From Bradyrhizobium erythrophlei (GTDB lineage Bacteria; Pseudomonadota; Alphaproteobacteria; Rhizobiales; Xanthobacteraceae), in the NCBI RefSeq assembly GCF_900142985.1, contig NZ_LT670849.1:620001-684000 (forward strand): a stretch of DNA of 64,000 bases, in the 5' to 3' direction. Shown here piece after piece: positions 33,363 through 62,641 of this stretch (position 1 is its first letter; every line of letters starts with the position of its first letter). The notes under the pieces were generated by a model. It searched no databases, had not been told where the DNA came from, and was given only the letters and a program-made list of their open reading frames with translations. Position numbers and translations under genes: made by a program.

Positions 33363-34562
33363 ATGGCCCATGACGCACCGCAGGCAACCGGCTCGAGCAA
33401 ACTTGTCATACGCAACATCGGCCTGTTGCTCTCGGGCGCGCTGGAAAAGCCGATCCTCGACGCCGACACGATCGTGGCCGAGAACGGCAAGATCACCGGC
33501 ATCGGCCGCCTCAAGGACGTCAACACTGAAGGCGCGACCACCACCGTCGATGCCCACGGCACGACAGTTGCCCCCGGCCTGATCGACAGCCACGTTCACC
33601 CCGTCGCAGGCGACTGGACGCCACGGCAAAACCAGATCAACTGGATCGATTCCTATCTGCATGGCGGCGTCACCACCATGATTTCGGCCGGCGAGGTTCA
33701 CATGCCCGGCCGTCCGCGTGACGTCGTCGGGTTGAAGGCGATGGCGATCTTTGCGCAACGCGCGTTCTGGACGCTGCGGCCGGGCGGTGTGAAGGTTCAT
33801 GCCGGTGCGCCGGTCATCGAATGCGAAATGGTAGAGGACGATTTCAAGGAATTGGCCGCCGCCGGCGTCAAGCTGCTCGGCGAAGTCGGCCTCGGCGGTG
33901 TCAAGGACGGACCGACCGCGCGCAAAATGGTCGGCTGGGCGCGCAAATACGGCATCCAGAGCACGATCCACACCGGCGGCCCGTCGATTCCGGGCTCCGG
34001 GCTGATCGACAAGGACGTGGTGCTCGAGGCCGATACCGACGTCATCGGCCACATCAACGGCGGTCATACCGCGCTTCCCGACGACCAGATCCGCTGCATC
34101 TGCGAAGGCTGCAAGCGCGGTCTTGAGCTCGTGCATAACGGCAATGAGCGTTCGGCGCTGTTTACGCTGCGCACCGCGCGCGAGATGAACGAACTTCATC
34201 GCGTCATCCTCGGCACCGACGCCCCGGCCGGCTCCGGCGTGCAACCGCTCGGCATCTTGCGCATGGTCTCCATGCTGTCCTCGCTCGGAGAACTTCCGGC
34301 CGAAATCGCGTTCTGCCTTGCAACGGGCAACACCGCGCGGATGCGGGAGCTCGACTGCGGCCTGATCGAGTTCGGCCGCTCGGCAGATTTTGTGCTGATG
34401 GACAAGGCGCAGCATTCGCCGGGCAAGACGCTGCTCGACAGCGTCCGGCTCGGCGATCTCCCCGGCATCGGCATGACCATCATCGACGGCATCGTGCGCA
34501 CCCAGCGCAGCCGCAACACGCCACCCGCAACCAAAGTGCCGGAGATTGTTGGGGGGCATTGA
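33363..34562 (+). CDS. ena: Enamidase-like amidohydrolase (nicotinate pathway)
   Basis: 399 residues, similar along its length to Eubacterium barkeri enamidase, which opens 1,4,5,6-tetrahydro-6-oxonicotinate to 2-formylglutarate plus ammonia. Shared phrases include NIGLLLSG, DADTIV, LHGGVTTMISAG, PGRPRDVVG, VGEVGLG, HTGGPSIPGSG, GHINGGHTA, ATGNTARM and SRNTPPA. Metal-site residues are present: His77/His79 (DSHVHP), bridging-type Glu174, His203, His230 and Asp286 (LGTDAP). It is cytoplasmic with no signal. AAAGGAAAA lies just before the ATG. It stands apart from the 6-hydroxynicotinate reductase and nicAB genes 21 kb away but completes their route. Another cyclic enamide as substrate is possible. 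Confidence 0.85.
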   Translation: MAHDAPQATGSSKLVIRNIGLLLSGALEKPILDADTIVAENGKITGIGRLKDVNTEGATTTVDAHGTTVAPGLIDSHVHPVAGDWTPRQNQINWIDSYLHGGVTTMISAGEVHMPGRPRDVVGLKAMAIFAQRAFWTLRPGGVKVHAGAPVIECEMVEDDFKELAAAGVKLLGEVGLGGVKDGPTARKMVGWARKYGIQSTIHTGGPSIPGSGLIDKDVVLEADTDVIGHINGGHTALPDDQIRCICEGCKRGLELVHNGNERSALFTLRTAREMNELHRVILGTDAPAGSGVQPLGILRMVSMLSSLGELPAEIAFCLATGNTARMRELDCGLIEFGRSADFVLMDKAQHSPGKTLLDSVRLGDLPGIGMTIIDGIVRTQRSRNTPPATKVPEIVGGH

Positions 34563-44789: not shown

Positions 44790-44791
44790 CG

Positions 44792-46663: not shown

Positions 46664-46666
46664 AGA

Positions 46667-47644: not shown

Positions 47645-47907
47645 AGCGCGGCCGAACTTGGTGGGCGTTTGTTGAAGCGCCGCCGCGCGCCATTGTCACC
47701 GTCCTCTCACCACTGCCTCGCCATCAAAACAGCCAGCCAACGCCATTCTGGAACGGGCTGCGCCTGCTCACGGCATGTTTCTGACATCGGTACGCTCGGC
47801 CCGGAATAAACCGATCGACGTTGGGGTCTATCCACGGGTTAGCGCGCGGATTCGGGCGGCCGAAGCTGCGCGCGTCTGTGTACGAGTTCCCCAGCGTGGT
47901 GACGTGA

Positions 47908-48705: not shown

Positions 48706-49161
48706 TCACCGCAGCCTTTCGAGCAGCGCCACGAACAGCTCGCGCTCGCGCGGGTCGAGCGGCGCAAGGGTTTCCTTCGAAATCGCCAGCGCATTGGCCG
48801 CGACCTTCTCCGTCAGTTGCAGGCCCGCGCGCGTCAGGCTGACGCGCAGACGACGTCCGTCTTCGGGATCGGCCGAGGTCTCGGTGAGGCCGCGCGCGGT
48901 GAGACGATCGATCACGCCCTTGATGGTCGCGACGTCCATCGCGGTCAGCCGCCCCAACTGGTTCTGCGAGCAAGGTCCGGTTTCGGCGAGTTTCGAGAGC
49001 GCGGCCCATTGAGTCGACGTCAGATCGGCACCTATGTCGCGGGCGAAGATCGTGGCGTGGCGTTGCGAGACCTGGCGCAGGATGAAGCCGATCTGCTCGT
49101 CGAGCACGTAGGAAAATCGCGGCGGCTTCACGCTCCGCTTCGGCGAAACAGCCCTGCTCAT
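48706..49161 (-). CDS. MarR-family transcriptional regulator
   Basis: 151-residue winged-helix repressor-type protein. It shows YVLDEQIGFILRQVSQRHATIFA, the recognition region TSTQWAALSKLAETGPCSQNQLGRLTAMDVATIKGVIDRLTARGLTETS, and the wing DPEDGRRLRVSLT. This subgroup often responds to aromatic or heteroaromatic acids. It lies 15 bases after the LivF stop, so it is probably the last gene of the 6-hydroxynicotinate-reductase operon and may control it. Its operator cannot be assigned; the palindromes at 56.97 and 57.04 kb look GntR-like but could be its sites. Confidence 0.9.
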   Translation of the reverse strand: MSRAVSPKRSVKPPRFSYVLDEQIGFILRQVSQRHATIFARDIGADLTSTQWAALSKLAETGPCSQNQLGRLTAMDVATIKGVIDRLTARGLTETSADPEDGRRLRVSLTRAGLQLTEKVAANALAISKETLAPLDPRERELFVALLERLR

Positions 49162-49176: not shown

Positions 49177-49881
49177 CTACAGCGCCAGATGCGCGTCGCG
49201 AATATCCGGACGCGCATCGAGTTCGGCCATGGTGCCGGAAAAACAAATGCGTCCGCGTTCGATGATGTAAGCGCGATCCGAAATCAGCCGCGCGAAGTGC
49301 AGATTCTGCTCGGAGACCAGAAGGCTGACGCCTGCCTTTTTCATCGCCAGGATGGCCTCGACCATCTGCTCCACGATCTTGGGCGAGAGCCCTTCGGAAG
49401 GCTCGTCGAGCAATACCAGCGACGGATTGCCCATCAGGGTGCGCGCGATGGTGAGCATCTGCTGTTCGCCGCCGCTCATCCGTCCACCCGGACGGTTGCG
49501 CATCTCGGCCAGATTGGGAAAGAGTTCGAACAGCCGCTCGCGCGTCCATTGCGGCGCGCTGGCCCGTGCCGGCTGGCGGCCAACCTCGAGATTTTCCTCT
49601 ACCGTCAAATCCGTGAAGATGCGCCGCTCTTCCGGCACGTAGCCAAGTCCGCCGCGCACGATCGCGTGCGTGGGCCAGCTCTCGATAGCGTGGCCCTCGA
49701 ACTGAATGCGCCCGGTACGTTGAGCAACAAGCCCGACGATCGAGCGAAAGGTGGTGGATTTCCCGGCGCCGTTACGCCCCAGCAGCGCCACCGCTTCCCC
49801 CTCGCCTACATCGAGCGCGACATCGAACAGGATATGCGCCGGCCCGTAGTGGCTGTTGAGATCCTGGACGGAGAGCTTCAC
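49177..49881 (-). CDS. Branched-chain-type ABC ATPase LivF (third system)
   Basis: 234 residues: Walker A GRNGAGKST, signature GGRMSGGEQQMLTIARTL, Walker B LVLLDEPSEGLSP and VSEQN in place of the His-switch region common in LivF. ATG 49881 overlaps the LivG stop as ATGA. It belongs to a minus-strand transporter set (receptor, fused LivHM, LivG, LivF) inside the nicotinate-type operon, so the cargo is probably nicotinate or a related heterocyclic acid (inference from context). Confidence 0.92.
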   Translation of the reverse strand: MKLSVQDLNSHYGPAHILFDVALDVGEGEAVALLGRNGAGKSTTFRSIVGLVAQRTGRIQFEGHAIESWPTHAIVRGGLGYVPEERRIFTDLTVEENLEVGRQPARASAPQWTRERLFELFPNLAEMRNRPGGRMSGGEQQMLTIARTLMGNPSLVLLDEPSEGLSPKIVEQMVEAILAMKKAGVSLLVSEQNLHFARLISDRAYIIERGRICFSGTMAELDARPDIRDAHLAL

Positions 49882-50669
49882 AGCGCGGCCCCCTCGCGGT
49901 GGCGGGCATCATAAACGAGGCCTTCGCCGAGATAGATCGCGCGTACTTGCGCGTTGCTGCGTACTTCTTGCGGCGAACCTTCCGCGATCAGGTTGCCGCG
50001 ATTTAGCACGAGGATACGGTCGGCGTGCTCGAACACGACGTCCATGTCATGTTCGGTGAAGAGAACGCCGATCGATTTTTCATTGGCGATCTGCGCCGTG
50101 AGCCGCATCAACTCGATCCGCTCGCGCGGCGCCATGCCGGCGGTCGGCTCATCCATCAGGAGCAGCCTGGGCTGGTTGGCGAGCGCGATCGCAAGCTCCA
50201 GCCGCTTGAGATCGCCATAGGCGAGCTCACCGCAGGGCCGCATCGAAAAGCCGCCCATGCCGACGAGGTCAAGCAGGTGATCGGCCTCCTCTCGCGCATA
50301 TCGCGGCATCGAAGCGGTGAGATTGAACAGCTTGTGGCCGTGCGACGAGAGCGCCACCTGGACGTTCTCGCGCACGGTCATGGTCGGGAATGTCGCGGTG
50401 ATCTGGAAGGTGCGGCCGACGCCGAGCCGCCAGACCTCCCGGGGCTTCAACCCGGTCGTGTCCCTGCCCAGCACATGCACCTTGCCCGCATCGGGCGCGG
50501 TCTGGCCGTTGAGCATGTTGAAGCAGGTCGACTTGCCTGCGCCGTTGGGGCCGATCAACGCCAGGATTTCGCCCGTCGCCAGCGAAAACGAGACGCCGCG
50601 CACGGCGTGCACGCCGCCATAGGATTTACTCAATCCCTCGACCGACAATAATGGCGGGTTGGCGCTCAT
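49878..50669 (-). CDS. Branched-chain-type ABC ATPase LivG (third system)
   Basis: 263 residues: LLSVEGLSKSYGGVHAVRGVSFSL, Walker A GPNGAGKST, GVGRTFQITATFPTMTV, signature-like LAYGDLKRLELAIAL, Walker B LLLMDEPTAGMAP and switch TEHDMDVVFEHADRILVLNRG. It overlaps both neighbours by 4 bases (ATGA), implying tight coupling. It energises the fused LivHM permease. Confidence 0.92.
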   Translation of the reverse strand: MSANPPLLSVEGLSKSYGGVHAVRGVSFSLATGEILALIGPNGAGKSTCFNMLNGQTAPDAGKVHVLGRDTTGLKPREVWRLGVGRTFQITATFPTMTVRENVQVALSSHGHKLFNLTASMPRYAREEADHLLDLVGMGGFSMRPCGELAYGDLKRLELAIALANQPRLLLMDEPTAGMAPRERIELMRLTAQIANEKSIGVLFTEHDMDVVFEHADRILVLNRGNLIAEGSPQEVRSNAQVRAIYLGEGLVYDARHREGAAL

Positions 50670-52549
50670 TCGGCGGTCTCGATGGGTGAGGCGATCGCGG
50701 TGGGTTTGGCCGGCGATAGCCGTCGCGGCCAGATCGCCTCAAACGTGCCAACGATCCCCTTGGGGAAGGCTATGACGATCACGACGATGAAGGCGCCGAG
50801 CACGAGCTTGGACCAGTCGGTCTGGCTGACGAGCCAGATCGAGAGCGTCTTGTAGACGATGGCGCCGATGATCGCGCCGGAAACGGTTTCGACGCCACCG
50901 AGCAGCACCATCACCAGCGCATCGACCGATAGCGGGATGCCGAGCACGTCCGGGAATACGCTGCCCTTGAGATAGGCGAACAGCGCGCCGCCGATGCCGG
51001 CGACGGTGCCGGCGATGACAAAGGCGCTCCACTGGATACGCTTGCCGTCGATTCCAATCGCCTCACTGCGCAGCGGCGAATCGCGGTTGGCGCGAAGCGC
51101 AAAGCCGAATGGCGAGAAGGTCACGATGCGCAACGCGCCGACTGCGAGCGCCGCAACCGCCAGCGACAGCCAATAGAAATGAGAAGGGCTCGAAGCCCAG
51201 CGCTCCGGCCAGACGCCGAGAATGCCGTTGTCGCCGCCGGTGACGCCGACCCACTGGAACGCGATCGACCAGACGATCTGCGCAAAGGCCAGCGTCAGCA
51301 TCGCGAAATAGACGCCGGACAGTTGGACCGAAAAGAAGCCGAACACCGCCGCGCCGAGCAACCCAAACAAGGGGCCGGCGAGCAGCGCGACCAGCATCGG
51401 CAGGCCGGCAAGCTTGACGGCAAAGGCAACGCCATAGGCGCCGAGCCCGAAATAAGCTGCATGCCCGAACGAGGCGAGCCCGCCGGCCGACATCAGAAAA
51501 TGCAGGCTGGCTGCGAAAATCACGAAGATGGCGATCTCGGCGCCTACGGTCAGTGCATAGTTGCCGGCGAAGAACGGCAGCGAGGCGGCGAACAGCAGCG
51601 CGATCGCAGCGGCGATACGCTCGTTCGAGGTGAGTGCACGCCAGGGATTGACCGTGAGCCCCGGCGTGCGGCGCGCCGGCGCCTCCGCCTTGCCTAACAG
51701 CCCCCAGGGCCGAACGATCAGGACCACCGCCATCACGAGAAATACCAGGATGATCGAGATTTTCGGAAAGATCAGGATGCCGAACGCGTTCAGTTCCGAG
51801 ACCAGTACCGCCGCGACAAACGCGCCGACGACGCTGCCGAGGCCGCCGATCACCACGACGACAAAGACGTCGACAATGACGCGCAGGTCCATCGCGTGGT
51901 TGACGGCGTCGCGCGGGATTTGCAGGGCGCCGGCAAGCGCGGCGAGAAATACGCCAAGCGCGAACACCGACGTGAAAAGCCATTTCTGATTGACGCCGAG
52001 CGCCGCCACCATGTCGCGGTCCTGCGTCGCGGCGCGCACCAGAACGCCCCAGCGGGTGCGCTGGAACACCAGCCACAGCAAGCCGAGCACCACCGGTCCG
52101 AGTGCGATCAGAAACAGGTCATAGCTCGGAATCCGCTGGCCGAAGAAATCGATCGCGCCCTTGAGGCCCGGCGCCCGCGGGCCGACCAGATCGTCCGGCC
52201 CCCAGCTCAGCACCACGAGGTCTTCGACCATCAGCGTCAGCCCGAAGGTCGCAAGCAGCTGAAACAGCTCAGGCGCGTGGTAGATCCGCCGCAGCAGCAG
52301 CATTTCGACGGCGACGCCGATCGCAGCCACGATCAGCGCAGCCAGCAGAATGCTGCTCCAGAACCCAAACGCGCCGGAGAACTGCTCGGTCAGGGTGTAC
52401 GCCACATAGGCGCCGAGCATGTAGAACGCGCCGTGGGCGAAATTGACGATCCGCGTCACGCCAAAGATGATCGACAGCCCTGAAGCGACCAGGAACAGCG
52501 AGGCTGCACTGGCAAGTCCGGTCAGGAACTGAACGATGTAAAAAGCCAT
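50666..52549 (-). CDS. Fused LivH-LivM ABC permease (third system)
   Basis: 627 residues uniting LivH (about 1-290: LFLVASGLSIIFGVTRIVNFAHGAFYMLGAYVA) and LivM (about 320-600: FAASLHFLMSAGGLASFGHAAYFGLGAYGVAF, LSVDALVMVLLGGVETVSGAIIGA), joined through a linker rich in Arg, Pro and Ala. Such HM fusions are known in this family. The frame is continuous, and the gene ends overlapping LivG. Before its start is a 146-base gap with a dispersed repeat, which separates it from the receptor gene but shows no clear terminator T-run. Confidence 0.92.
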   Translation of the reverse strand: MAFYIVQFLTGLASAASLFLVASGLSIIFGVTRIVNFAHGAFYMLGAYVAYTLTEQFSGAFGFWSSILLAALIVAAIGVAVEMLLLRRIYHAPELFQLLATFGLTLMVEDLVVLSWGPDDLVGPRAPGLKGAIDFFGQRIPSYDLFLIALGPVVLGLLWLVFQRTRWGVLVRAATQDRDMVAALGVNQKWLFTSVFALGVFLAALAGALQIPRDAVNHAMDLRVIVDVFVVVVIGGLGSVVGAFVAAVLVSELNAFGILIFPKISIILVFLVMAVVLIVRPWGLLGKAEAPARRTPGLTVNPWRALTSNERIAAAIALLFAASLPFFAGNYALTVGAEIAIFVIFAASLHFLMSAGGLASFGHAAYFGLGAYGVAFAVKLAGLPMLVALLAGPLFGLLGAAVFGFFSVQLSGVYFAMLTLAFAQIVWSIAFQWVGVTGGDNGILGVWPERWASSPSHFYWLSLAVAALAVGALRIVTFSPFGFALRANRDSPLRSEAIGIDGKRIQWSAFVIAGTVAGIGGALFAYLKGSVFPDVLGIPLSVDALVMVLLGGVETVSGAIIGAIVYKTLSIWLVSQTDWSKLVLGAFIVVIVIAFPKGIVGTFEAIWPRRLSPAKPTAIASPIETAE

Positions 52550-52575
52550 GGGTGCTTCAGATTAGCTCTCGGTGC

Positions 52576-52681
52576 GTGGCCTCATCCTTCGAGACGGCAC
52601 TTCGTGCCTCCTCAGGATGAGGGGTGAGACCCTCATGGTGAGGAGCGCAGCGGAGCCGCGCGTCTCGAACCATGAGGCCAC
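52576..52681 (-). repeat. Dispersed repeat (CCTCATGGTTCGAGACG family), copy 2
   Basis: GTGGCCTCATCC opens and CCATGAGGCCAC closes a 106-base element with internal complementary pairs (CCTCAGGATGAGG; CCCTCATGGTGAGG). The reverse complement matches the element at 34575-34681 nearly in step. It lies inside an operon, between the receptor and the permease genes, where it could lower or separate their expression. Confidence 0.8.
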
Positions 52682-52695
52682 GAGATCTATCGCGT

Positions 52696-53904
52696 TCAAT
52701 CCTTCGGCCGCATCTTTTCGACTTCCGCATCGCTCGGCAGATAATCCGAGCCCTTGCGGTAGATGGAATCGACCATCACGCCCTTGCCGTCCTTCAGCGC
52801 GGTCTTTCCGACGAAGGCCCCTAGCGTCGACTGGTGATCGATCTTGCGGAAGGTGATCTCACCGAACGGCGACGACAGCGAGATGCCTTCGGCTGCGGCG
52901 ATCAGCTTCTCCGGATCGGTCGAGTTGGCCTTGGTAAGGATCGCGGCAGCCGCCTTGATCGTCTCGTAGCCGACGATCGAACCGAGCCGCGGATAGTCGT
53001 TATACTTGCTCTGGTAAGCCTTCAGGAACGCGTCATGCTCGGGCGTCTTGATCGAGTACCAGGGATAGCCGGTGACGATCCACCCTTCCGGCGTCTCGTC
53101 CTTGAGCGGATCGAGATATTCCGGCTCGCCGGTGAGGAAGCTCACCACGGTGCGATCCTTGAACAGGCCACGCGTATTGCCTTCGCGCACGAGTTTGACG
53201 AGGTCGGCGCCGAACTCGACGTTCAGGATGGCTTCGGGATTGGCTGCGGCAACCGCTTGCACCACGGGGCCCGCATCGATCTTGCCCTGCGGCGGCCACT
53301 GCTCCTCGACCCATTGAATGTCGGGCCGCTTTTCCGACATCAGCTTCTTGAACACCGACACCGCCGACTGGCCGTATTCATAATTCGGCGCAATCGTGGC
53401 CCAGCGCTTGGCCGGCAATTTCGCGGCGGCTTCCACCAGCATTGCGGCCTGCATGTAGTTCGACGGGCGCAGGCGGAACGTATAGCGGTTGCCCTTCGAC
53501 CAGGTGATGGCGTCGGTCAGAGGTTCGGCGGCTAGGAAAAACACTTTCTTCTGGTTGGCGAAGTCGCTGACGGCAAGCCCGATATTGGACAGGAACGTGC
53601 CGGTCAGCATCGCGACGTTCTCGCTCGACACCAGCTCGTTGGCCGCCGTCTGCGCATCCGCCGGCTTGCCGCCGTCGTCCTTGGAAACGACGACAAGTTT
53701 CTTGCCGTTGATGCCGCCCGCGGCGTTGATCTCCTCGACCGCGAGCTGCCAGCCCTTGCGGTAGGGTTCGGTGAACGCCGGCAGCAGCGAGTAGCTGTTG
53801 ATCTCGCCGATCTTGATCTCTCCGCTCTGCGCAAATGCGCCTTGCGTGAGACCTGCATAGGTCAAGGCAAACAGCCCGCCCAATAGAATCTTGCTTCGTT
53901 GCAT
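52696..53904 (-). CDS. ABC solute-binding protein, LivK type (third system)
   Basis: 402 residues: signal MQRSKILLGGLFALTYAGLTQGAFA, then IKIGEINSYSLLPAFTEPYRKGWQLAVEEINAAGGINGKKL, close to a group of type-I receptors associated with aromatic or heterocyclic acids. It is the periplasmic receptor for the LivHM/LivG/LivF system. It starts 30 bases after the DUF1185 stop, so it is read from the 6-hydroxynicotinate reductase promoter. Direct ligand evidence is lacking. Confidence 0.9.
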   Translation of the reverse strand: MQRSKILLGGLFALTYAGLTQGAFAQSGEIKIGEINSYSLLPAFTEPYRKGWQLAVEEINAAGGINGKKLVVVSKDDGGKPADAQTAANELVSSENVAMLTGTFLSNIGLAVSDFANQKKVFFLAAEPLTDAITWSKGNRYTFRLRPSNYMQAAMLVEAAAKLPAKRWATIAPNYEYGQSAVSVFKKLMSEKRPDIQWVEEQWPPQGKIDAGPVVQAVAAANPEAILNVEFGADLVKLVREGNTRGLFKDRTVVSFLTGEPEYLDPLKDETPEGWIVTGYPWYSIKTPEHDAFLKAYQSKYNDYPRLGSIVGYETIKAAAAILTKANSTDPEKLIAAAEGISLSSPFGEITFRKIDHQSTLGAFVGKTALKDGKGVMVDSIYRKGSDYLPSDAEVEKMRPKD

Positions 53905-53934: not shown

Positions 53935-54519
53935 TTATCGCAATCCGTCTTCGCCCTTGATCTCGCCGACCGTGAGGCCGCCGACCCGCGGCAGCGGACG
54001 GCCGCCGTCGGTGACCGCGAGCGCCACCATGATCTCGTTGGCGCGCGGGGCGTCGTTGATCTGAACTTCCATGCCGTCGAAATGGCTCCGGACAAAGGCC
54101 GCGTCCTTGTGACCGAGCGGAATGTCGAGCGTGGTGCCGGGGCCGCTGCGCTTTTTTGAGGATGGGATCAGTGCAGCACCTTTGCCCAGCGCTTTCCGCA
54201 CCGGCGTTCCCATCTTGGGATGCAAGATCGCTGCCGCATGCTCCAGTTCGCCGTTTTCGCCGACGGCAGCCGCCTTGCCATAGCTGTGCACCTTGGCGCC
54301 GTCGATCCCGAGCGCCGCGACCGCCCTTTTGGCAAGCAATTCGCCGAGTTCTTCGCCGATTGCGATCAGCGGCGACAGATCGTCCACATAGCGTCCAGCG
54401 AACGGGTTCTCGATCACCGCTATCGCGGCCGCACGCCGGACCGGCGGACTGACGCCCTTCCCCATTTCCATCAACGTCTCTTCGACAACAGTCACGATTT
54501 TGCGGATGATGACGGTCAT
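53935..54519 (-). CDS. DUF1185 (amino acid synthesis family) protein
   Basis: 194 residues, cytoplasmic. It shows the family phrases KIVTVVEETLMEMGKGVSPPVRRAAAIAVIENPFAGRYVDDLSPL, GELLAKRAV and a C-terminal NDAPRANEIMVALAVTDGGRPLPRVGG. The family name is historical and no reaction is established. It lies between UPF0280 and the ABC receptor in the operon headed by the 6-hydroxynicotinate reductase homologue. I infer a catabolic role in the same pathway, possibly a ring or side-chain hydrolysis, but no catalytic residues can be named. Confidence 0.82.
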   Translation of the reverse strand: MTVIIRKIVTVVEETLMEMGKGVSPPVRRAAAIAVIENPFAGRYVDDLSPLIAIGEELGELLAKRAVAALGIDGAKVHSYGKAAAVGENGELEHAAAILHPKMGTPVRKALGKGAALIPSSKKRSGPGTTLDIPLGHKDAAFVRSHFDGMEVQINDAPRANEIMVALAVTDGGRPLPRVGGLTVGEIKGEDGLR

Positions 54520-54564
54520 GGACGGGCACCCTGTTGGGGAACGGCGATGATGGCCGAATGCGGG

Positions 54565-55470
54565 TTAGGCATGGATCATACTTTCGTTGACTAACGGCCG
54601 ATGAAGGACATCGGCAGCCGGGCTTGGCAAGCTGATGAGACGGAATTCGCCTTTCAGATGGAGCGCCGCGGCCTCGATCAGGCCCAAATCCAGCAACCGG
54701 CGAGCTTTGTCGCAACCGCCTTCCAGCGCCGCGGCGATTTCGGCCTCGTTGAGGAAACCGACCTCCCGGGTCACCAGGCGCGAGCCGAGATCGCTATCCG
54801 GCTGCAATTCATCCGCGGGACGCCGAATGATCGCCGGATGATCCGGCAGGTCGACCGCATTGGCGATAATGGTGGCAGCGGCATCGGCCTGCGCCGCGGT
54901 GCGCGCCAAGACCGTCACGGCATCGGCGATACCGAGCGAAAAGCTGCGGCCGTGACGGCCGCTGGTCGCGATGCCACGCCCCGGATCGGCCGCGCGCACC
55001 ACCGCCGTCCGCATCAAGCCGAGCGCATCCGGCCGATCGATCAAGCCGACAGTGAACTGTTCGCCATCGGTGAGATGAAACGCAATGTCGCCGCCGTTAT
55101 TGACATAGGCGCGGCTCAGCGGCGCGGCGCGCACCATCGCGCCGAGAATTTCCTCCGCGACGCTGCCTGCCACGGCCGCCATCGGCGTGATGAAATGATC
55201 GCGGGCGAATGGCGCTACCGCCGCATGCATGCGGCGGGCGACCACGCCCTGTAACGAGCACCGCGCTGGATCGGCTTTGGCTCGCAGCAGCGCCAATTCG
55301 CGGCAGAGTTCGTCGAGCAGGCCGGCAAAACGATCGACCGCCGCTTCGTAAGCGGCGCGCAGGTTTTCGCGGCTCCCACTCGCTTCCACGATCAGATCAA
55401 TCGGACCATCCTGCAAATGCAGCCGCTTGCCGTCCTTGAGCCATCCGACCTGCGGCTGCCGCACCATCAT
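54565..55470 (-). CDS. UPF0280 family protein
   Basis: 301 residues, cytoplasmic, of the ApbE-fold-related UPF0280 family. It shows GPIDLIVEASGSRENLRAAYEAAVDRF, ITPMAAVAGSVAEEILGAM, AYVNNGGDIAFHL, GIATSGRHGRSFSLGIADAVTVLA and AIIRRPADELQPDSDLGSRLVT. Members typically show the NNGGDIA and TSGRHGRS phrases; biochemical function is unassigned. ATG 55470 overlaps the reductase stop (ATGA), so the two are translationally coupled. The frame open to 55842 lies within the reductase and is rejected. Direct coupling to the reductase suggests that it assists or follows that step. Confidence 0.85.
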   Translation of the reverse strand: MMVRQPQVGWLKDGKRLHLQDGPIDLIVEASGSRENLRAAYEAAVDRFAGLLDELCRELALLRAKADPARCSLQGVVARRMHAAVAPFARDHFITPMAAVAGSVAEEILGAMVRAAPLSRAYVNNGGDIAFHLTDGEQFTVGLIDRPDALGLMRTAVVRAADPGRGIATSGRHGRSFSLGIADAVTVLARTAAQADAAATIIANAVDLPDHPAIIRRPADELQPDSDLGSRLVTREVGFLNEAEIAAALEGGCDKARRLLDLGLIEAAALHLKGEFRLISLPSPAADVLHRPLVNESMIHA

Positions 55471-56912
55471 CGCGCTCCCGATTTCGGCGAGGGCGATGCG
55501 ACCACGCGTGTTTCGCTGCCTTTCAGCGAATCCAGAGGGCGAACGTGATCCATATGGCCGCCGAGCGCGGCATAATCCGACAGCCGCATCGTGAACTCGA
55601 TCGGCGCGACCAATGCCGGCGTCGGCACGTAGCCGAACGCGCCCGCCGGCAGCCGCGTGACATTGACCATGAACGTGATCCCGCCGCCGGGCCAGACATA
55701 GACCGGCGCGCCACCGCTGGTGACGCGCGTCAACGCATCCTTCACCGAACGCGTCAACCGCACCGGGTTGTCGGTGACGCCTGCGCGTAACGAGCCGCCC
55801 GCCCCGCCCATGAACAGCACGGTGCACAGCGCCGGTTCGCAATTCTCCTGAATGCGCTCGACCGAGAACTGAAGCTCGGATGGCATCGTCTTCTGAATCG
55901 GCTTGAGCGCTTTATCGAGCTCGTAATAGGCGGCATGCTCGCCGGTGGTCGAAACCATCAGCATGGTGGTGCCGGGCTTTGCGACCTTCGGATCGAACGG
56001 ACCCAAAATCGACAGCGGGTCGGAAATCTGCGTGCCGCCCCAGCCGGTGCCGGGTTCGGCGACCTGGAAATAACGGCCGGGCGTCGAGCGCCGTCCCTTC
56101 ATCTTGATGCCGGTGTCGGCGATATCGAGCACCTTGCCGGCCTGATGTTCCGAGAGCACGCCCGTGATGTGATCGTCGACCACCACGACCTCGTCGACCT
56201 TGCCCTGCCATTGCTTGGCGAACATGCCGATCGTCGCCGAGCCGCACCCCACTCTCATGCGCTCCTCGGTGACGCCATTGATGATCGGCGCTTGGCCCGC
56301 CTGCACCACAACCGTCGCGCCGCCATCGATGGTCATCTCGACCGGCTTGCAGTTGCTCAAATCCATCAGCGTGTCGCAGGTGACGCGGCCTTCCTTCTTC
56401 GATCCGCCAGTAAGGTGATGGACGCCGCCGAGCGACAGCATCTGCGAGCCATATTCACCGGTAGTGACATGGCCAACCGCCTCGCCTTGCACACGTACGG
56501 TCGCGGTCTCGGGCCCGAGGAAGCGGTCGGTGTCGATCTTCACCTTGACGCCGCAATAGCTGAAGATGCCCTCGGTCACGACCGTGACCATGTCGACGCC
56601 GTCGATTTCCGAAGACACGATAAACGGCGCGGGCTTGTAATCGGGATAGGTGGTGCCGGCGCCGATCGCGGTGACGAACACATCGTGCTCGTGAACGATC
56701 TTGCCGTCCCAATCGCCGCCGGCCTGGAACGGCACCAGCCGTCCGCCATGCGACACCGTCCGCTCAAGAAGAACATGCGGATCGACGCGCACGAGTTCGC
56801 CGTCGTGATTGGCATAGCGATCGCAGGCGCCTGCCGCACCCGGCTTGATGTAACACATCACCGGGCAGGCATCGCAGCGGATCTTGTCGGCGGCCACAGA
56901 GTCTGTCGACAT
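55467..56912 (-). CDS. hnr: 6-hydroxynicotinate reductase-like Fe-S protein
   Basis: 481 residues of the family named for E. barkeri 6-hydroxynicotinate reductase, which makes 1,4,5,6-tetrahydro-6-oxonicotinate. The N-terminus has four Cys at 13, 16, 20 and 30 (RCDACPVMCYIKPG, GACDRY), suitable for a [4Fe-4S] cluster. Later are EGIFSYCGVKVKIDTDRFLGPE, RMRVGCGSATIGMFAKQW and GTGWGGTQISDPLSI. ATG 56912 follows GAGGGCTTG. A longer frame to 57047 would run through the operator region and is rejected. It heads the minus-strand operon and diverges from nicAB. Family assignment is from memory of characteristic phrases; the exact substrate is inferred. Confidence 0.85.
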   Translation of the reverse strand: MSTDSVAADKIRCDACPVMCYIKPGAAGACDRYANHDGELVRVDPHVLLERTVSHGGRLVPFQAGGDWDGKIVHEHDVFVTAIGAGTTYPDYKPAPFIVSSEIDGVDMVTVVTEGIFSYCGVKVKIDTDRFLGPETATVRVQGEAVGHVTTGEYGSQMLSLGGVHHLTGGSKKEGRVTCDTLMDLSNCKPVEMTIDGGATVVVQAGQAPIINGVTEERMRVGCGSATIGMFAKQWQGKVDEVVVVDDHITGVLSEHQAGKVLDIADTGIKMKGRRSTPGRYFQVAEPGTGWGGTQISDPLSILGPFDPKVAKPGTTMLMVSTTGEHAAYYELDKALKPIQKTMPSELQFSVERIQENCEPALCTVLFMGGAGGSLRAGVTDNPVRLTRSVKDALTRVTSGGAPVYVWPGGGITFMVNVTRLPAGAFGYVPTPALVAPIEFTMRLSDYAALGGHMDHVRPLDSLKGSETRVVASPSPKSGAR

Positions 56913-56964
56913 CAAGCCCTCGAACCGGCAAAAAGCACCTGGAGGGTATTGCCCACCGGGCACT

Positions 56965-56982
56965 TCATTCGTATACAAACGA
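56965..56982. promoter_or_regulatory. GntR-like operator, copy 1
   Basis: TCATTCGTATACAAACGA shares 13 of 18 positions with the perfect palindrome 69 bases away, including GTAT and CAAACG. It lies 53-70 bases before the reductase start, near where its promoter should be. A regulator gene of the GntR type is not in this window. Confidence 0.5.
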
Positions 56983-57033
56983 TCTTGCTCGCCCCGCGAA
57001 AAGCTGTCAAGCGCGTTTAGGCGGCACGCTTGC

Positions 57034-57051
57034 ACGTTTGTATGCAAACGT
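57034..57051. promoter_or_regulatory. GntR-like operator, copy 2
   Basis: ACGTTTGTATGCAAACGT has perfect 7-base arms around TATG, the form of FadR/VanR-type GntR operators. It lies 45-62 bases before the nicA-type start, so it could overlap that promoter. Together with copy 1 it suggests joint control of both divergent operons. Confidence 0.6.
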
Positions 57052-57095
57052 TATTCTCGAAAAGCCTTTAAACCTAGCGCGAAGATGCCGCACGC

Positions 57096-57578
57096 ATGAC
57101 GCAGAGTTCGATCCGCCTCAACGTCAACGGCCGGATCCATGAGGTCGGCGCGTCGCCCGATACCGCCCTGCTCTATGTGCTGCGCAACGATCTCGAACTG
57201 AACGGACCGAAGTACGGTTGCGGCCTCGGCGAATGTGGCACCTGCACGGTACTGATCGATGGTATCGCGGCGCGATCGTGCGCCATTCCGATCGAAGGCT
57301 GTGCCGGCCGCGAGATTCTCACGCTTGAAGGGCTCGGCAATCGCCACGCTCCCGATCCCGTGCAGGAAGCTTTCATCGCCGAGCAGGCCGCGCAATGCGG
57401 CTACTGTCTCAACGGCATGATCATGACCACAAAGGCGCTGTTGTTGCGCAACCCGCACCCGACCGAGCAGGAGGCGATGGAGGCGCTGCGCTACAACCTC
57501 TGCCGCTGCGGCGCGCATGTCGAGATCCTCCACGCGGTGATGCGCGCGGCGGGCGCCGTGGTCGAGGCACGCGATTGA
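57096..57578 (+). CDS. nicA: Nicotinate dehydrogenase small subunit (two 2Fe-2S clusters)
   Basis: 160-residue iron-sulfur subunit of a molybdenum hydroxylase. The plant-ferredoxin-type cluster is ligated by YGCGLGECGTCTVLIDG, and the second cluster by CGYCLNGMI and LCRCGAHVEI. Length and pairing with a Mo-cytochrome fusion match Pseudomonas NicA, which passes electrons from the molybdenum site. Isoquinoline 1-oxidoreductase small subunits are the nearest alternative. It overlaps the large-subunit gene by one base (TGATG) and is divergent from the reductase operon. Confidence 0.88.
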   Translation: MTQSSIRLNVNGRIHEVGASPDTALLYVLRNDLELNGPKYGCGLGECGTCTVLIDGIAARSCAIPIEGCAGREILTLEGLGNRHAPDPVQEAFIAEQAAQCGYCLNGMIMTTKALLLRNPHPTEQEAMEALRYNLCRCGAHVEILHAVMRAAGAVVEARD

Positions 57579-60500
57579 TGGGCGCATCAGATTCTTCCGG
57601 CAACAGCGAGCATCGCGCGGGGACGCTGGTCGTCGTGCGTCCCGCCGCAGCCAGCGCAGGCAATCCGTTCGAGACCTTCATCAAGATCACGGCTGACGGC
57701 TCGGTCACGGCTTTCAACGGCCATGTCGATCTCGGGACCGGGATTCGCACCGCGCTCGGACAGATCGTGGCCGAAGAACTGGATGTGTCCTTTGCGCGCG
57801 TCGTCGTGGTGCTCGGTGACACCTCGCGCGTGCCCAACCAGGGCGCGACGATTGCGAGCGAAACCATCCAGATTACCGCCGTGCCGCTGCGAAAGGCCGC
57901 AGCCCAGGCGCGGCAATTTCTGATCGCGCGCGGCGCGGAACGGCTCGAACTGCCCGTCGCGGAATTGACGATCGAGGACGGTCTGATCCGCGGGCACAAC
58001 CGCTCGATCAGCTATGGCGAGTTGATCGGCGACGACAGCATCCGCCTCGAACTCGCCGACGACGTGACGGTCAAGCCCACCGGCGACTATCGCATTGTCG
58101 GCCAGTCGGTGCCTCGCGTCGATCTGCCGGCCAAGGCGACCGGCGAGCTCGTCTACGTCCACGACATCCGCGTGCCCGGCATGCTTCATGGCCGCGTGGT
58201 GCGGCCGCCTTACGGTGGCGTCGATGGCGGCGATTTCGTCGGCACGAGTTTGCTTGATGTCGACGAGTCCTCGGTGCGCGACATTCCCGGCTTCGTCGCA
58301 GTCGTGCGCATCGCCGATTTCGTCGGCGTGGTCGCCGAACGCGAGGAAAACGCGATTCGAGCGGCTTCGCAACTCAAGCTCACCTGGAAGAAGGTGCCGA
58401 CGCTTTCCGATCTGAAAGACGTGGAGCAAGCGCTGCGCGCCAATCCGTCGACGCCGCGCACCCTGATCGACAAGGGCGATGTCGATGCGGCGCTCGGAAA
58501 GGCCACGAAGCCGATCGATCGCACCTATCTCTGGCCCTACCAGATGCACGCCTCGATCGGGCCGTCCTGCGCGGTGGCGGAGTTTCGCGACGATCAGGTG
58601 CGGGTCTGGTCGGGTACGCAAAACCCGCACGCGCTGCGCGGCGATCTCGCGCTCTTGCTGAAGCGCCCGGAATCCGAGATTGAGATCATCCGGATGGAAG
58701 CGGCCGGCTGCTATGGCCGGAACTGTGCCGACGACGTCTGCGCCGACGCCGTGTTGCTGTCGCGCGCGGTCGGACGGCCGGTTCGGGTGCAATTGACGCG
58801 CGAGCAGGAACACGTCTGGGAACCGAAGGGCACCGCACAGCTGATCGACGTCAAGGGGGGGCTAAACGCGGATGGCGGCATTGCCGGATACGATTTCGCC
58901 AGCCGTTACCCTTCCAATGGCGCGCCGACGCTGGCGCTGCTCCTGACCGGCGCGGTTTCATCGACGCCGCTGGTCTCGGAGATGGGCGACCGCACCGCGA
59001 TCCCGCCCTACGACTACGACAATCTTCGCGTGGTGGCGCATGATATGCCGCCCATCATGCGGGCGGCCTGGTTTCGCGGCGTCTCGGCGCTGCCGAACAG
59101 CTTTGCGCATGAATCCTACATTGACGAACTCGCGCACGAAGCAGGGGTCGACCCGATCGAATATCGCCTGCGCTACCTCAAGGACCCCCGCGCGGTCGAT
59201 CTCGTCAAGGCCGTTGCCGAGCGCGGCGAATGGAAGCCGCGTCCGGTGCGGCAGGAAAAATCAAGCGAAGACGACGTCGTGGAGGGTCGGGGCTTTGCCT
59301 ATGCGCTTTACGTGCACAGCAAGTTTCCGGGCTATGGCTCGGCGTGGTCGGCGTGGATCGCCGACGTGGCCGTCAACAAGGCCACCGGCGATGTCAGCGT
59401 CACGCGCGTCATCGCAGGACAGGACTCCGGGTTGATGATCAATCCGGACGGCGTGCGCCACCAGATCGAAGGCAACGTCATCCAGTCGACCAGCCGCGCG
59501 CTGATGGAAGAAGTCGCGTTCAGCGGCCGGTCGGTCGCGAGCCGCGAATGGGGCGCCTACCCCATCATCAAATTCCCGCAGTTGCCCAAGATCGACGTCC
59601 TGATGCTGCCGCGCGACGATCAACCGCCGCTCGGCGTCGGCGAATCCGCATCCGTCCCGAGCGCGGCCGCGATCGCGAACGCGATCTTTGACGCCACTGG
59701 CGTGCGCTTGCGCGAACCGCCATTTACGCCGGAGCGCATTCTGGCTGAGCTTCGCGGCCAACAGGCCGGGCCCGCCCTCTCCGCACCGGCGAAGCCGACG
59801 AAAATAGATCTGAGCCGCTGGCCCAATCCGTTCGCAAAACGCCGTGGCGTGTTCGCCACCGCCGCCGCACTCCTCGCCGGCGGCGTCGGCATTGCCGCGG
59901 CGATGTTGCCCTTTCGATCGATCGCGCCGATCGAAAGGCCGGAGCGTTCCGTGTTTTCCGCCGCCACCATCGAACGCGGCCGGCAACTGGCGGCGCTCGG
60001 CGACTGCGCGACCTGCCACACCTCGGTCGATGGCGTGCTGTATGCCGGCGGACATGCCATCGAGACGCCGTTCGGCATTGTCTATGGCACCAACATCACG
60101 CCCGACGTGGAGACCGGGATCGGCAACTGGTCATATCCGGCCTTCGAGCGCGCCATGCGTGAAGGCATTCATCGCGACGGCCGGCAACTCTATCCGGCCT
60201 TTCCCTACACGCATTTTGCCAAATCAAGCGATGCGGACCTTCAGGCGCTCTACGCATATCTGATGGCGCAGACGCCGGTTGCCCGTGACAACCGTCCACA
60301 CGCCCTCGCTTTTCCCTTCAATTGGCGCCCGTTACTCGCTGGCTGGAATGCGCTTTTTCATAACGCCGGCACCTTCACGGCCGACCCGGAAAAGTCGGCC
60401 GTCTGGAATCGTGGCGCCTATCTGGTCGAAGGCCTCGGCCATTGCGGGGCCTGCCATTCGCCCCGCAATGCGCTCGGCGCGGAAAAGGACAGCGCCTATC

Positions 60501-61132
60501 TCGCCGGCGGCTTTGCCGAGGGCTGGGAAGCCCCGCCCTTGACGTCGCTGTCACACGCGCCGATCCCCTGGACCGAGGACGAACTGTTCACCTATTTGCG
60601 GACCGGCTTCTCGCGCTTCCATGGCGTCGCCGCCGGTCCGATGACGCCGGTGGTGCAGGAGCTGAAGGCACTGCCGGATGACGACATCCGAGCCATGGCA
60701 ATCTATCTCGCGTCCTTCAACGAAACCGCGACGGCCAAAACCGACCCCGAGGCGCTGGCTACCCAGCTCGAACGCGTGGCGGGCTCACGCATTGTCGCGG
60801 CATCGCCATTCGGGCAGCGCTTTTACGAGGGCGCTTGCGCGGTCTGTCACGCGGTCGGCGGGCCCCCATTGTTCGGCAGCCGGCCGTCGCTTGCGCTCAA
60901 CAGCAACGTGCATGCCGCAACCCCCGACAACCTGATCCAGGTGGTGCTGCACGGCATCGCCAAACCCGTCTCCAGCGATCTCGGCTACATGCCGGCCTTC
61001 GGCGACCACCTGTCGGACGACCAGCTTGCCGAACTGGTTGGCTACCTGCGGCAGCAATTCGCACCGGAAAAGCCGGCCTGGACCGGGGTCAAGGACATCA
61101 TCATGCGCATCCGGCAAGCCAAAGCCGGCTGA
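57578..61132 (+). CDS. nicB: Nicotinate dehydrogenase large subunit with three c-type hemes
   Basis: 1184 residues, close to Pseudomonas NicB in length and plan. Residues about 1-740 are a xanthine-dehydrogenase-type molybdopterin domain (FNGHVDLGTGIRTALGQIVAEEL, GASIASETIQ-like TIASETIQ, RAAWFRGVSALPNSFAHE) with catalytic Glu near 689 in LGVGESASVPS. A hydrophobic segment (757-778) probably anchors it. Three cytochrome c domains follow: CATCH at 810-814, CGACH at 956-960, CAVCH at 1087-1091. It hydroxylates the pyridine ring at C6 and delivers electrons to the respiratory chain. The frame open from 57395 overlaps nicA and is not used. A related heteroaromatic substrate is possible. Confidence 0.88.
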   Translation: MGASDSSGNSEHRAGTLVVVRPAAASAGNPFETFIKITADGSVTAFNGHVDLGTGIRTALGQIVAEELDVSFARVVVVLGDTSRVPNQGATIASETIQITAVPLRKAAAQARQFLIARGAERLELPVAELTIEDGLIRGHNRSISYGELIGDDSIRLELADDVTVKPTGDYRIVGQSVPRVDLPAKATGELVYVHDIRVPGMLHGRVVRPPYGGVDGGDFVGTSLLDVDESSVRDIPGFVAVVRIADFVGVVAEREENAIRAASQLKLTWKKVPTLSDLKDVEQALRANPSTPRTLIDKGDVDAALGKATKPIDRTYLWPYQMHASIGPSCAVAEFRDDQVRVWSGTQNPHALRGDLALLLKRPESEIEIIRMEAAGCYGRNCADDVCADAVLLSRAVGRPVRVQLTREQEHVWEPKGTAQLIDVKGGLNADGGIAGYDFASRYPSNGAPTLALLLTGAVSSTPLVSEMGDRTAIPPYDYDNLRVVAHDMPPIMRAAWFRGVSALPNSFAHESYIDELAHEAGVDPIEYRLRYLKDPRAVDLVKAVAERGEWKPRPVRQEKSSEDDVVEGRGFAYALYVHSKFPGYGSAWSAWIADVAVNKATGDVSVTRVIAGQDSGLMINPDGVRHQIEGNVIQSTSRALMEEVAFSGRSVASREWGAYPIIKFPQLPKIDVLMLPRDDQPPLGVGESASVPSAAAIANAIFDATGVRLREPPFTPERILAELRGQQAGPALSAPAKPTKIDLSRWPNPFAKRRGVFATAAALLAGGVGIAAAMLPFRSIAPIERPERSVFSAATIERGRQLAALGDCATCHTSVDGVLYAGGHAIETPFGIVYGTNITPDVETGIGNWSYPAFERAMREGIHRDGRQLYPAFPYTHFAKSSDADLQALYAYLMAQTPVARDNRPHALAFPFNWRPLLAGWNALFHNAGTFTADPEKSAVWNRGAYLVEGLGHCGACHSPRNALGAEKDSAYLAGGFAEGWEAPPLTSLSHAPIPWTEDELFTYLRTGFSRFHGVAAGPMTPVVQELKALPDDDIRAMAIYLASFNETATAKTDPEALATQLERVAGSRIVAASPFGQRFYEGACAVCHAVGGPPLFGSRPSLALNSNVHAATPDNLIQVVLHGIAKPVSSDLGYMPAFGDHLSDDQLAELVGYLRQQFAPEKPAWTGVKDIIMRIRQAKAG

Positions 61133-61138
61133 AACCCA

Positions 61139-61214
61139 CTAGTGTTCCGGTTCTGACATTCGTACGCGATCGCGGCAGGTTCGTTTACGAATGTCAGAAC
61201 CAAAGGAACACTAG
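61139..61214. repeat. CTAG-bounded palindrome, pair 3 member a
   Basis: 76 bases. Outer stem CTAGTGTTCC with GGAACACTAG, unpaired AAA in the right arm only, and inner stem GGTTCTGACATTCGTA with its exact complement. It begins 7 bases after the nicB stop, so it may also serve as the operon's 3' hairpin. A spacer of 13 bases separates it from member b. Confidence 0.85.
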
Positions 61215-61227
61215 CAAACTTATGATT

Positions 61228-61304
61228 CTATGCGGTTTTGGATTTGACATTCGCTATGAGAATTTGCGGTGCCGCTGAGGCGAATGTCAAATCCACCGCA
61301 CTAG
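61228..61304. repeat. CTAG-bounded palindrome, pair 3 member b
   Basis: 77 bases. The left end has decayed to CTATGCGGT against right-end ACCGCACTAG. Unpaired TTT lies in the left arm, and the inner stem GGATTTGACATTCGC pairs exactly. It is inverted relative to member a, as in the other two pairs, and ends 32 bases before pncB. Confidence 0.82.
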
Positions 61305-61336
61305 CTGAGGCCTCTCTAGCCCGCTAGACTTGACCC

Positions 61337-62641
61337 ATGACCGTCAACGATATCGCAACGCGGACCTATAACCACGGCTTTCGGCTCGACCCGATCGTGC
61401 GCAGCCTGCTGGACACCGATTTCTACAAGCTTCTGATGGTGCAAATGATCCGGGATATGTACCCGGAGCAGCAGGTCACCTTTTCGGTCATCAATCGTTC
61501 GAAGCACGTCCGGCTCGCCGAAGTGATCGACGAAGCCGAATTGCGCGCCCAGCTCGACCACGCCCGTTCGATCCGCTTTTCCAAGAAGGAATTGATCTGG
61601 CTCGCCGGTAATACGTTCTACGGCAAGACCCAGATGTTCTCGCCCGACTTCATCAACTATCTCTCGACCTTCCGCCTCCCCGAATACGAGCTGAAGAAAG
61701 TCGATGGCCAGTACGAACTGAATTTCTACGGGCCGTGGACGCATACAACGATGTGGGAAATCCCCGCGCTCGCCATCCTCAATGAGCTGCGCTCGCGCCA
61801 GGTGATGAAGGGCCAGGGGCGCTTTGCGCTGGACGTGCTCTATGCGCGCGCCAAGGCCAAGCTCTGGACCAAGGTCGAACGCTTAAGGAAGCTCGACGGC
61901 TTGCGGCTGTCGGATTTCGGCACGCGCCGCCGCCACGGTTTTCTGTGGCAGCGCTGGTGCGTCGAGGCGGTCAAGGAAGGGCTGGGCCCGGCCTTTACCG
62001 GGACCTCCAACGTGCTGCTTGCGATGGATAGCGACCTGGAGGCCATCGGCACCAATGCGCATGAATTGCCGATGGTCGCCGCCGCTCTCGCCAAAGACGA
62101 CAACGAATTGCGCTGGGCGCCCTATCGCATTCTCGATCAATGGCGTCACACCTATGGCGGCAATCTCCTGATCGCGCTGCCCGACGCCTTCGGCACCAAG
62201 GCTTTCCTGCGTGACGCGCCGGAATGGGTCGCCGACTGGACCGGCTTTCGTCCCGACAGCGCCCCGCCGATCCAGTCCGGCGAGGAAATCATCGCGTGGT
62301 GGAAGCAAAAGGGAAAAAATCCGAAGGAAAAGCTTCTGGTATTTTCCGACGCCATGGATGTTGAATCGATCGAGGAAGTCCACCGGCACTTTGCCGGCCG
62401 CGTGCGCGTCAGCTTCGGCTGGGGCACCAATCTGACGAACGATTTCGTCGGCTGCGCACCTAATGACTCGGTCAACCTCAATCCAATCTCGATCGTCTGC
62501 AAGGTGACCTCGGTCGACGGCCACCCGGCCGTGAAGCTGTCGGACAACCCGGAGAAAGCCACCGGCGCGCCGAGCGAAGTCGAGCGGTACCTGCGCGTGT
62601 TCGGCGATGCCGGCCGGGTTCGCACCGCCGTGCACGTCTAG
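61337..62641 (+). CDS. pncB: Nicotinate phosphoribosyltransferase
   Basis: 434-residue enzyme of NAD salvage (nicotinate + PRPP + ATP to nicotinate mononucleotide). PncB-family phrases: [75 protein letters not shown] (autophosphorylation-site region near AHELPM), and [10 protein letters not shown]. It lies downstream of nicAB on the same strand, separated by a palindrome pair. The two use the same substrate for opposite ends, salvage and degradation. Whether they share a promoter is unclear. Confidence 0.95.

Follow-up and report, generated by a model that had tools for sequence, protein, structure and literature searches.

In Pseudomonas putida, the NicAB/NicC pathway comprises a c-heme molybdenum (Mo) hydroxylase, a MarR-type regulator and an oxidative second step. 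In E. barkeri, the hydroxylase contains two Mo-protein subunits and the 6-hydroxynicotinate reductase (Hnr) binds its flavin covalently; homologues of the first three genes were reportedly noted in nine Proteobacteria in the 2006 E. barkeri paper. The closest described system is a conserved cluster of Azorhizobium caulinodans, Bradyrhizobium japonicum USDA110 (blr3818-blr3830), R. palustris HaA2 and Bradyrhizobiaceae strain SG-6C, which, by its description, holds the genes of the first three steps, an ABC transporter and two conserved unknowns, and for which a route through 1,4,5,6-tetrahydro-6-oxonicotinate (THON) has already been proposed (Shettigar et al., 2012; PMC3511419). Strain SG-6C degrades nicotinate, and likewise 6-hydroxynicotinate, when given as its only source of carbon, 6-hydroxynicotinate being seen transiently, and a glutarate route is given for 2-formylglutarate in Azorhizobium; the abstract and the passages on the cluster report no purified enzyme of it, and the main text contains no words beginning with hydantoin-, oxoprolin-, cytochrome, molybd- or flavin (PMC3511419).

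The window analysed here, a stretch of 64,000 nucleotides of Bradyrhizobium erythrophlei, carries the same set of genes with the same proposed pathway when compared by description, and is one more copy of this published kind of cluster, the two conserved unknowns of which are taken to be UPF0280 and DUF1185. Consequently, an earlier note does not stand where it calls the genes of this arrangement uncharacterised, since the cluster had been published in four strains (PMC3511419). Beyond it, we add a BpsR-like MarR regulator with its palindromes, the distribution of UPF0280 with the reductase homologue (HNR), a split between enamidase and HyuA, and the restriction of NicAB. Unlike the published cluster, the window has its enamidase gene 14 kb away and lacking an operator-like site.

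The oxidative half comprises a nicA-type [2Fe-2S] subunit of nicotinate hydroxylase (57096..57578, plus strand; PF01799, PF00111) and a nicB-type molybdopterin subunit bearing three c-type hemes at its C-terminus (57578..61132, plus strand; PF20256, PF02738, PF00034, PF13442), for which the ATG that overlaps the stop of nicA was taken as the start. Together they present the NicAB architecture, a [2Fe-2S] subunit paired with a Mo subunit to which three c-type cytochrome domains are fused, with three CXXCH motifs (Pfam and motif scan), and they lie divergent from the reductase homologue, exactly where the earlier note had placed them. The adjacency of pncB and an importer was likewise borne out: the nicotinate phosphoribosyltransferase gene (61337..62641, plus strand) passes the NCBIfam cut-offs of NF003704 and TIGR01514, and the importer set (49177-53904, minus strand) consists of a substrate-binding protein (52696..53904; PF13458), a fused permease (50666..52549; two stretches of PF02653) and two ATPases (49878..50669, PF00005 and PF12399; 49177..49881, PF00005). 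Between the importer and the reductive genes lies a DUF1185/AA_synth protein (53935..54519, minus strand; PF06684, E 1e-76; PDB 2qtp, 3byq). As had also been claimed, no FAD-dependent aromatic monooxygenase of the nicC type was found among the 40 window ORFs scanned with Pfam, a part of the window ORFs that includes a few which are probably not genes.

The locus therefore resembles the P. putida system in its c-heme Mo hydroxylase and MarR-type regulator, but differs from it in that the scanned ORFs hold no nicC-type gene and the second step would be reductive instead of oxidative. With the E. barkeri nicotinate fermentation cluster it has the reductase and enamidase steps in common, whereas the hydroxylase of E. 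barkeri includes a flavin subunit and that of the window is of the c-heme NicAB type (PMC10331938, PMC3511419). The gene order of the window recurs among named loci that were retrieved on the basis of HNR only, 80 in number and the best-ranking among 349 relatives, so the arrangement is not a matter of chance; pncB is found in 53 of these 80, some of the others ending early on that side. In the samples examined, NicAB and HNR occur together only in Bradyrhizobium/Afipia-type loci, while a FAD-type Mo hydroxylase is usual in HNR loci outside this type. The locus was correctly called a hybrid, although this is not peculiar to the window but a feature of the Bradyrhizobium/Afipia-type loci sampled.

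The reductase homologue, hnr, is present as a minus-strand ORF (55467..56915, ATG at 56915; homologue names, alignment A1), and what has to be refined is its extent, the ORF at 54565-55470 being a separate UPF0280 gene and no part of the reductase. HNR matched nothing in Pfam, NCBIfam or the PDB sequences, searched with E-value limits of 0.001, 0.01 and 1, respectively, and its predicted model found no fold match in the PDB. The name accordingly comes from its homologues, called 6-hydroxynicotinate reductase wherever sources go beyond 'hypothetical protein' or 'conserved protein', and from the 42% identity published between the SG-6C homologue, not the window HNR, and E. barkeri Hnr (PMC3511419). 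Among 39 aligned HNRs, seven Cys are invariant, namely those of an N-terminal CxxCxxxCx9C motif and Cys 121, 224 and 359, and Cys 180 is kept in 38; this set would leave room for two predicted [4Fe-4S] clusters.

The UPF0280 protein (54565..55470, minus strand; NF003322 above cut-off) begins with an ATG that overlaps the hnr stop as ATGA. Its predicted model (pLDDT 91.8) has the overall fold of ApbE, an FMN transferase, and matches ApbE structures with Foldseek and VIA-align, while PF02424 scores 22.0 bits, below the cut-off of 25.6. Fold and the segments NxGGD, ATSG and ADxxAT are alike in UPF0280 and the ApbE/Ftp/FmnB FMN transferases, whose catalytic triad is Asp-Ser-His with His as general base (PMC12052999). 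The Asp of ADxxAT and the Ser of ATSG, matched to ApbE by segment and not by superposition, are invariant, but the general-base His has no conserved counterpart between these two segments, so that the triad is incomplete; a nearly invariant His20 (31/33) stands elsewhere in the sequence, and no signal peptide is seen by eye. Furthermore, UPF0280 and HNR have an identical genome distribution (the same 28 of 190 and the same 21 of 299 genomes), and of the 106 HNR loci, 104 have UPF0280 next to hnr, while L067 and L138, which do not, are truncated by contig ends; the family appeared in two of 14 control genomes, both methanogens, below cut-off. Since this distribution is inseparable from that of HNR in the samples examined, the function of UPF0280 is worth asking about, and is now a testable question.

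In this context, UPF0280 may handle the flavin of HNR. It is conceivable, at somewhat less than an even chance, that it is a flavin transferase attaching a presumed covalent flavin to HNR, at an acceptor site that departs from the customary ApbE motif, a reading weakened by the missing general-base His and by HNR itself: the target motif D-x-x-[ST]-G-A-[ST] occurs in none of the 39 aligned HNRs, and in the nearest look-alike, GCGSAT, Thr228 is Ala in 4/39. Rather unlikely, UPF0280 would instead be a non-catalytic flavin-binding subunit or an electron-entry partner of HNR in a putative complex; the co-occurrence, the ApbE fold, the missing catalytic His and the scanned recurring families of clustered HNR loci, among which no ferredoxin or ferredoxin reductase was recognised, would suit such a role.

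A BpsR-like MarR regulator (48706..49161, minus strand; PF01047; PDB 2nnn, 6pcp, 6pco) closes the cluster on the importer side. Bordetella BpsR contacts 6-hydroxynicotinate through Tyr15, His23, Arg26 and His32, and the window protein, of the same MarR family (E 2e-23), keeps three of these four ligand residues (Tyr, Arg and His), whereas His23 is replaced by Phe; NicR is said not to share the ligand residues of BpsR in the same source (PMC6837509). Two operator-like palindromes sit between hnr and nicA, at 56966..56981 and 57035..57050, with two mismatches and one mismatch to CGTTTGTATACAAACG, respectively, and are the sole matches with up to three mismatches in 64 kb (chance 0.03). They are conserved in relatives: in 1.53 Mb from 80 of these, 145 sites with up to three mismatches were counted, 124 beside hnr/nicA and 21 upstream of enamidase, and none elsewhere.

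The enamidase homologue (33363..34562, plus strand) lies where the earlier note had placed it and is a full-length match, aligning to E. barkeri enamidase (PDB 2vun, E 7.5e-107) over residues 12-395 of 399. The alignment shows the segments HxH, HTGG, HINGG and DAP in both, which we take to be the metal-site segments by their ligand roles. The gene lies about 14 kb from the cluster with no operator-like site, the best upstream match having seven mismatches, as in background. In relatives, an operator-like site with up to five mismatches stands 89-113 bp upstream of enamidase in 38/38 and 3/3 Bradyrhizobium/Afipia-type promoters; the 41 are those with enough upstream sequence, six shorter ones being left out, and include at least one duplicate (L103 and L178 are the same contig, judged by their length). 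More distant enamidase genes had no such site (0/8, with five to eight mismatches). Because a like site precedes enamidase in all 41 promoters examined, enamidase is tied to the pathway, and because it ends the same cluster behind that operator in relatives, the reading that includes the distant window gene is supported. Very improbably, this gene serves some other pathway encoded in the adjoining region at 20-40 kb, as the gap, the absent site, a divergent GMC oxidoreductase gene and inverted repeats of its own upstream would allow; against this, its orientation relative to the MarR gene is as in relatives, where the two are adjacent or within 9 kb, orthologues 91-95% identical to it, which bear the site, occur in each of the six further genomes of the genus that have HNR in the sample of the phylum, and the second enamidase-like gene of the genome shares just 44% identity.

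The cluster probably breaks down vitamin B3 (nicotinate), with the ring first oxidised and then reduced. The ABC importer would take up nicotinate; NicAB would convert it to 6-hydroxynicotinate, passing electrons via the c-hemes to the respiratory chain; HNR, as a flavin/Fe-S enzyme, would reduce 6-hydroxynicotinate to THON; and enamidase would hydrolyse THON to 2-formylglutarate and ammonia, a route that the earlier note had also drawn and that homology and context support. The MarR protein would sit on the two palindromes and repress both divergent units, nicA and hnr, until 6-hydroxynicotinate or a closely related compound releases it, and UPF0280 would be an obligatory partner, most likely handling the flavin of HNR. 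We regard this nicotinate catabolic regulon of importer, NicAB, HNR, enamidase, MarR control and UPF0280 partner as very probable, and infer its enzymatic steps, importer substrate, MarR-palindrome binding, inducer and UPF0280 role from what is observed, namely the genes and their order, the homologies, the co-occurrences and the conserved palindromes. Domain content and order, the end-to-end alignment of enamidase with the E. barkeri enzyme of known structure, three of four BpsR contacts, operator-like sites placed only by hnr/nicA and enamidase, and the growth data on SG-6C, a strain with a cluster of like kind (PMC3511419), speak in its favour; the distance of the window enamidase and its missing site, which leave its co-regulation here no more than putative, the 26 of 45 HNR genomes lacking an enamidase of at least 60% identity, and the want of any HNR match in Pfam, NCBIfam, PDB sequences or PDB folds count against it.

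Among relatives, enamidase is present in 19 of 45 HNR genomes, NicAB being restricted as described above. Caprolactamase-like HyuA was found in 28 of the 45, both in two and neither in none, at thresholds of 60% identity for enamidase and 55% for HyuA that were set after the lists were seen; best enamidase matches were at least 64% or at most 40% identical (or absent at E 1e-40), and best HyuA matches at least 55% or at most 48% (or absent at E 1e-150). On the HNR tree the two labels interleave, with repeated switching, and are also clustered (0/500 shuffles as low), as expected for kin; enamidase counts are quoted here, because the two genomes with both raise the HyuA label counts. The database label '6-hydroxynicotinate reductase' thus does not imply the enamidase route.

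HNR is thus accompanied by either of two Mo hydroxylases, NicAB or the FAD type, and by enamidase or HyuA/HyuB; together with NicA-like stretches only about 32-44% identical in distant loci, this could also mean that the substrate of the HNR module is a different hydroxylated pyridine or lactam-forming heterocycle, with nicAB and pncB as chance neighbours or salvage genes and HyuA without enamidase marking other substrates. We consider this improbable, since one operator region is common to nicA and hnr in the window lineage, HNRs outside the genus are 64-80% identical to that of the window in the enamidase and HyuA groups alike, their labels interleaving on the tree, and 29/29 MarR proteins from the class and phylum samples, those of the HyuA group among them, retain the Tyr and Arg that form part of the 6-hydroxynicotinate site, though only 9/14 of that group retain the last His.

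An ATP-dependent lactamase may replace enamidase in the HyuA-type HNR genomes. A wider proposal, which we hold to be doubtful, is that in most sampled HNR genomes an ATP-spending caprolactamase-like HyuA/HyuB opens the HNR product, that the ring-openers were swapped several times, and that HNR everywhere depends on UPF0280, of ApbE fold with altered catalytic residues, for its flavin. Compared with caprolactamase CapAB (PMC8453981) and the OplAB oxoprolinases, which open the six-membered valerolactam (PMC11033972), the substrate of HyuA/HyuB would be THON. Two further questions become testable through the comparison, whether ATP-dependent lactamases open the ring of a reduced pyridine and by what means rhizobia carry out a low-potential ring reduction. 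In the enamidase-less L118, a relative and the only genome so scanned, HyuA and HyuB contain Hydantoinase_A and Hydantoinase_B domains, and their best NCBIfam models are CapA and CapB (490.5 and 323.1 bits, well below the cut-off of 1000). Outside HNR genomes, HyuA was seen at 59% (G114), 64% over part of its length (G127) and 54% identity (G011), and enamidase in one genome at 74% (G082).

Gene order, the three CXXCH motifs of NicB and a match to PDB entry 2vun bore out the gene set that the earlier note had reported at this locus, including its distant enamidase. The window spans bases 620001-684000 of its source genome (7.5 Mb, one contig). Its minus strand carries, from 56915 downwards and in this order, the genes for the 6-hydroxynicotinate reductase homologue (HNR; hnr, 55467-56915), the ApbE-fold protein UPF0280 (54565-55470), DUF1185 (53935-54519), a substrate-binding protein, a fused permease, two ATPases and a MarR regulator. 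Divergent from the hnr side, nicA (57096-57578), nicB (57578-61132) and pncB (61337-62641) lie on the plus strand. In an overlapping ATGA, hnr ends and UPF0280 begins; the nicB start likewise falls on the nicA stop, and the enamidase homologue (33363-34562) aligned with 2vun across almost its full length. The gap between enamidase and MarR genes (35183-48699) holds a two-component system (35183-37230, histidine kinase and LuxR-type response regulator) and porin-like, alpha/beta hydrolase, solute-binding protein, TRAP transporter and 2-hydroxyacid dehydrogenase genes.

The note took the arrangement to be uncharacterised, a view that did not hold, since Shettigar et al. (2012; PMC3511419) describe a conserved cluster, common to A. 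caulinodans, B. japonicum USDA110, R. palustris and strain SG-6C, in which the HNR homologue of SG-6C is 42% identical to that of E. barkeri; both arrangement and pathway reading are thus in print. Databases also label homologues 6-hydroxynicotinate reductase. The proposed hybrid with a cytochrome-bearing NicB was seen in the window and is lineage-specific within the class and phylum samples, where such NicB proteins occurred in 6/43 loci, all from the same genus as the window; 32/43 had a FAD subunit like the one that in locus L113 adjoins a fused [2Fe-2S]-Mo protein.

Of 349 relatives found in one scan with HNR, the best 80 were taken as named loci, mainly from Bradyrhizobium and Afipia, and this set therefore leans to close kin; the nearest named relatives by HNR among these 80 were Bradyrhizobium. 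The NicB cytochrome part was present in 68/80 loci, the remaining 12 being loci whose sequence extends <3.4 kb in that direction, and UPF0280 adjoined hnr in 104/106 loci (80 named + 26 unnamed), both exceptions being contig ends. Enamidase (≥60% identity) lay inside the fetched stretch in 41/80 loci, usually past the MarR gene, with the two genes running towards each other; the distance from MarR was about 4 to 9 kb in three relatives with a more remote enamidase and 14 kb in the window, in the same relative orientation. The recurring families scanned near HNR included no recognisable ferredoxin or ferredoxin reductase; two recurring unlabelled families outside that scan, F10 and F13, appear to be antisense shadows of the UPF0280 and transporter genes.

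The window has two matches to the palindrome CGTTTGTATACAAACG (≤3 mismatches), against 0.03 expected, and both lie in the hnr-nicA interval. In 80 relatives (1.53 Mb), 124 of the 145 sites at this threshold lay beside hnr/nicA and 21 upstream of enamidase, with none elsewhere. Allowing ≤5 mismatches, the best site stood 91-113 bp ahead of the enamidase start in 38/38 Bradyrhizobium/Afipia-type genes with adequate upstream sequence (6 with short upstream ends were dropped) and at 89-100 bp in 3/3 further ones, although at least one of these 41 promoters is a repeat, L103 and L178 apparently being the same contig. Among 1500 random 420-bp window pieces, 51 had exactly 5 mismatches and only 11 had fewer, all with 1 mismatch and representing the true site. 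The rarity of such sites in random pieces and their place in these relatives tie enamidase to the predicted regulon; against this link, however, the window's own enamidase upstream region lacks a site (best 7 mismatches), as do 8/8 distant enamidase genes (5 to 8 mismatches). Between its GMC oxidoreductase and enamidase genes, at the place of the relatives' operator-like site, the window has two different perfect inverted repeats (33099-33150 and 33189-33243), with 16- and 17-base arms 20-21 bases apart.

The closest PDB entries to the window MarR were 2nnn and then BpsR (6pcp, 6pco), for which PMC6837509 gives Tyr15, His23, Arg26 and His32 as 6-hydroxynicotinate contacts. The corresponding window residues are Tyr, Phe, Arg and His, a pattern shared by 72/72 Bradyrhizobium/Afipia rows, the window's and those of 71 relatives. 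A MarR match was obtained in 29/43 class/phylum loci; Tyr and Arg were retained in 29/29, and the last His in 10/13 enamidase genomes, 9/14 genomes with the hydantoinase/oxoprolinase-type HyuA, and 2/2 with both.

Many HNR genomes lack enamidase, and several such loci carry hyuA and hyuB; for the L118 pair the top NCBIfam models were caprolactamase CapA and CapB, with scores under the cut-off. Across 45 distinct HNR genomes (28 + 21 - 4 shared), enamidase (≥60% identity) was found in 19, HyuA (≥55%) in 28, both in 2 (G299, G367) and neither in 0, with cut-offs picked after the lists had been seen; the class sample alone gave 10, 18, 0 and 0. Fisher's p, uncorrected for kinship, was 1.6e-10 and 7.6e-8, respectively. 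HyuA lay within the fetched HNR locus in 15/43 cases, 11 with HyuB too, and never together with enamidase in these 43 loci; the remaining HyuA genomes have it elsewhere or past the fetched stretch. On the 43-row HNR tree the enamidase label takes 5 changes, 3 forced by well supported branches, which points to repeated exchange of enamidase and HyuA while HNR outside the genus stayed similar (64-80% identity to the window HNR).

The expected reductase product, 1,4,5,6-tetrahydro-6-oxonicotinate, is a six-membered lactam. OplAB, of the oxoprolinase kind, is described in PMC11033972 as opening six-membered valerolactam in an ATP-driven manner. By this analogy, replacement of enamidase by HyuA on the same substrate is plausible, with about an even chance of being correct; alternatively, HyuA may point to a substrate other than this one.

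A second DUF1185 gene, ~50% identical to the window's, adjoins the first in Afipia loci (e.g., L057, L060, L064) and several distant loci. Elsewhere in the window's genome, L140 (G000:C1:4794000-4813900) carries a second enamidase-like gene (44% identical), in a run (8469-11925) of DUF1185, HpaB-type monooxygenase and enamidase-like genes next to another ABC importer. Locus L144 also has DUF1185 beside an enamidase-like gene. Another DUF1185 gene of the window's genome, at 10103-10741 of L141 (G000:C1:7060000-7079900), neighbours amidohydrolase, L-PSP-type protein, short-chain dehydrogenase and ABC importer genes. Furthermore, a vanillate-demethylase-like Rieske oxygenase gene lies inside HNR loci L122, L133 and L136, and HNR genes were found on 26 plasmid or megaplasmid records (H1-H26), including 12 from Sulfitobacter and 4 from Rhizobium.
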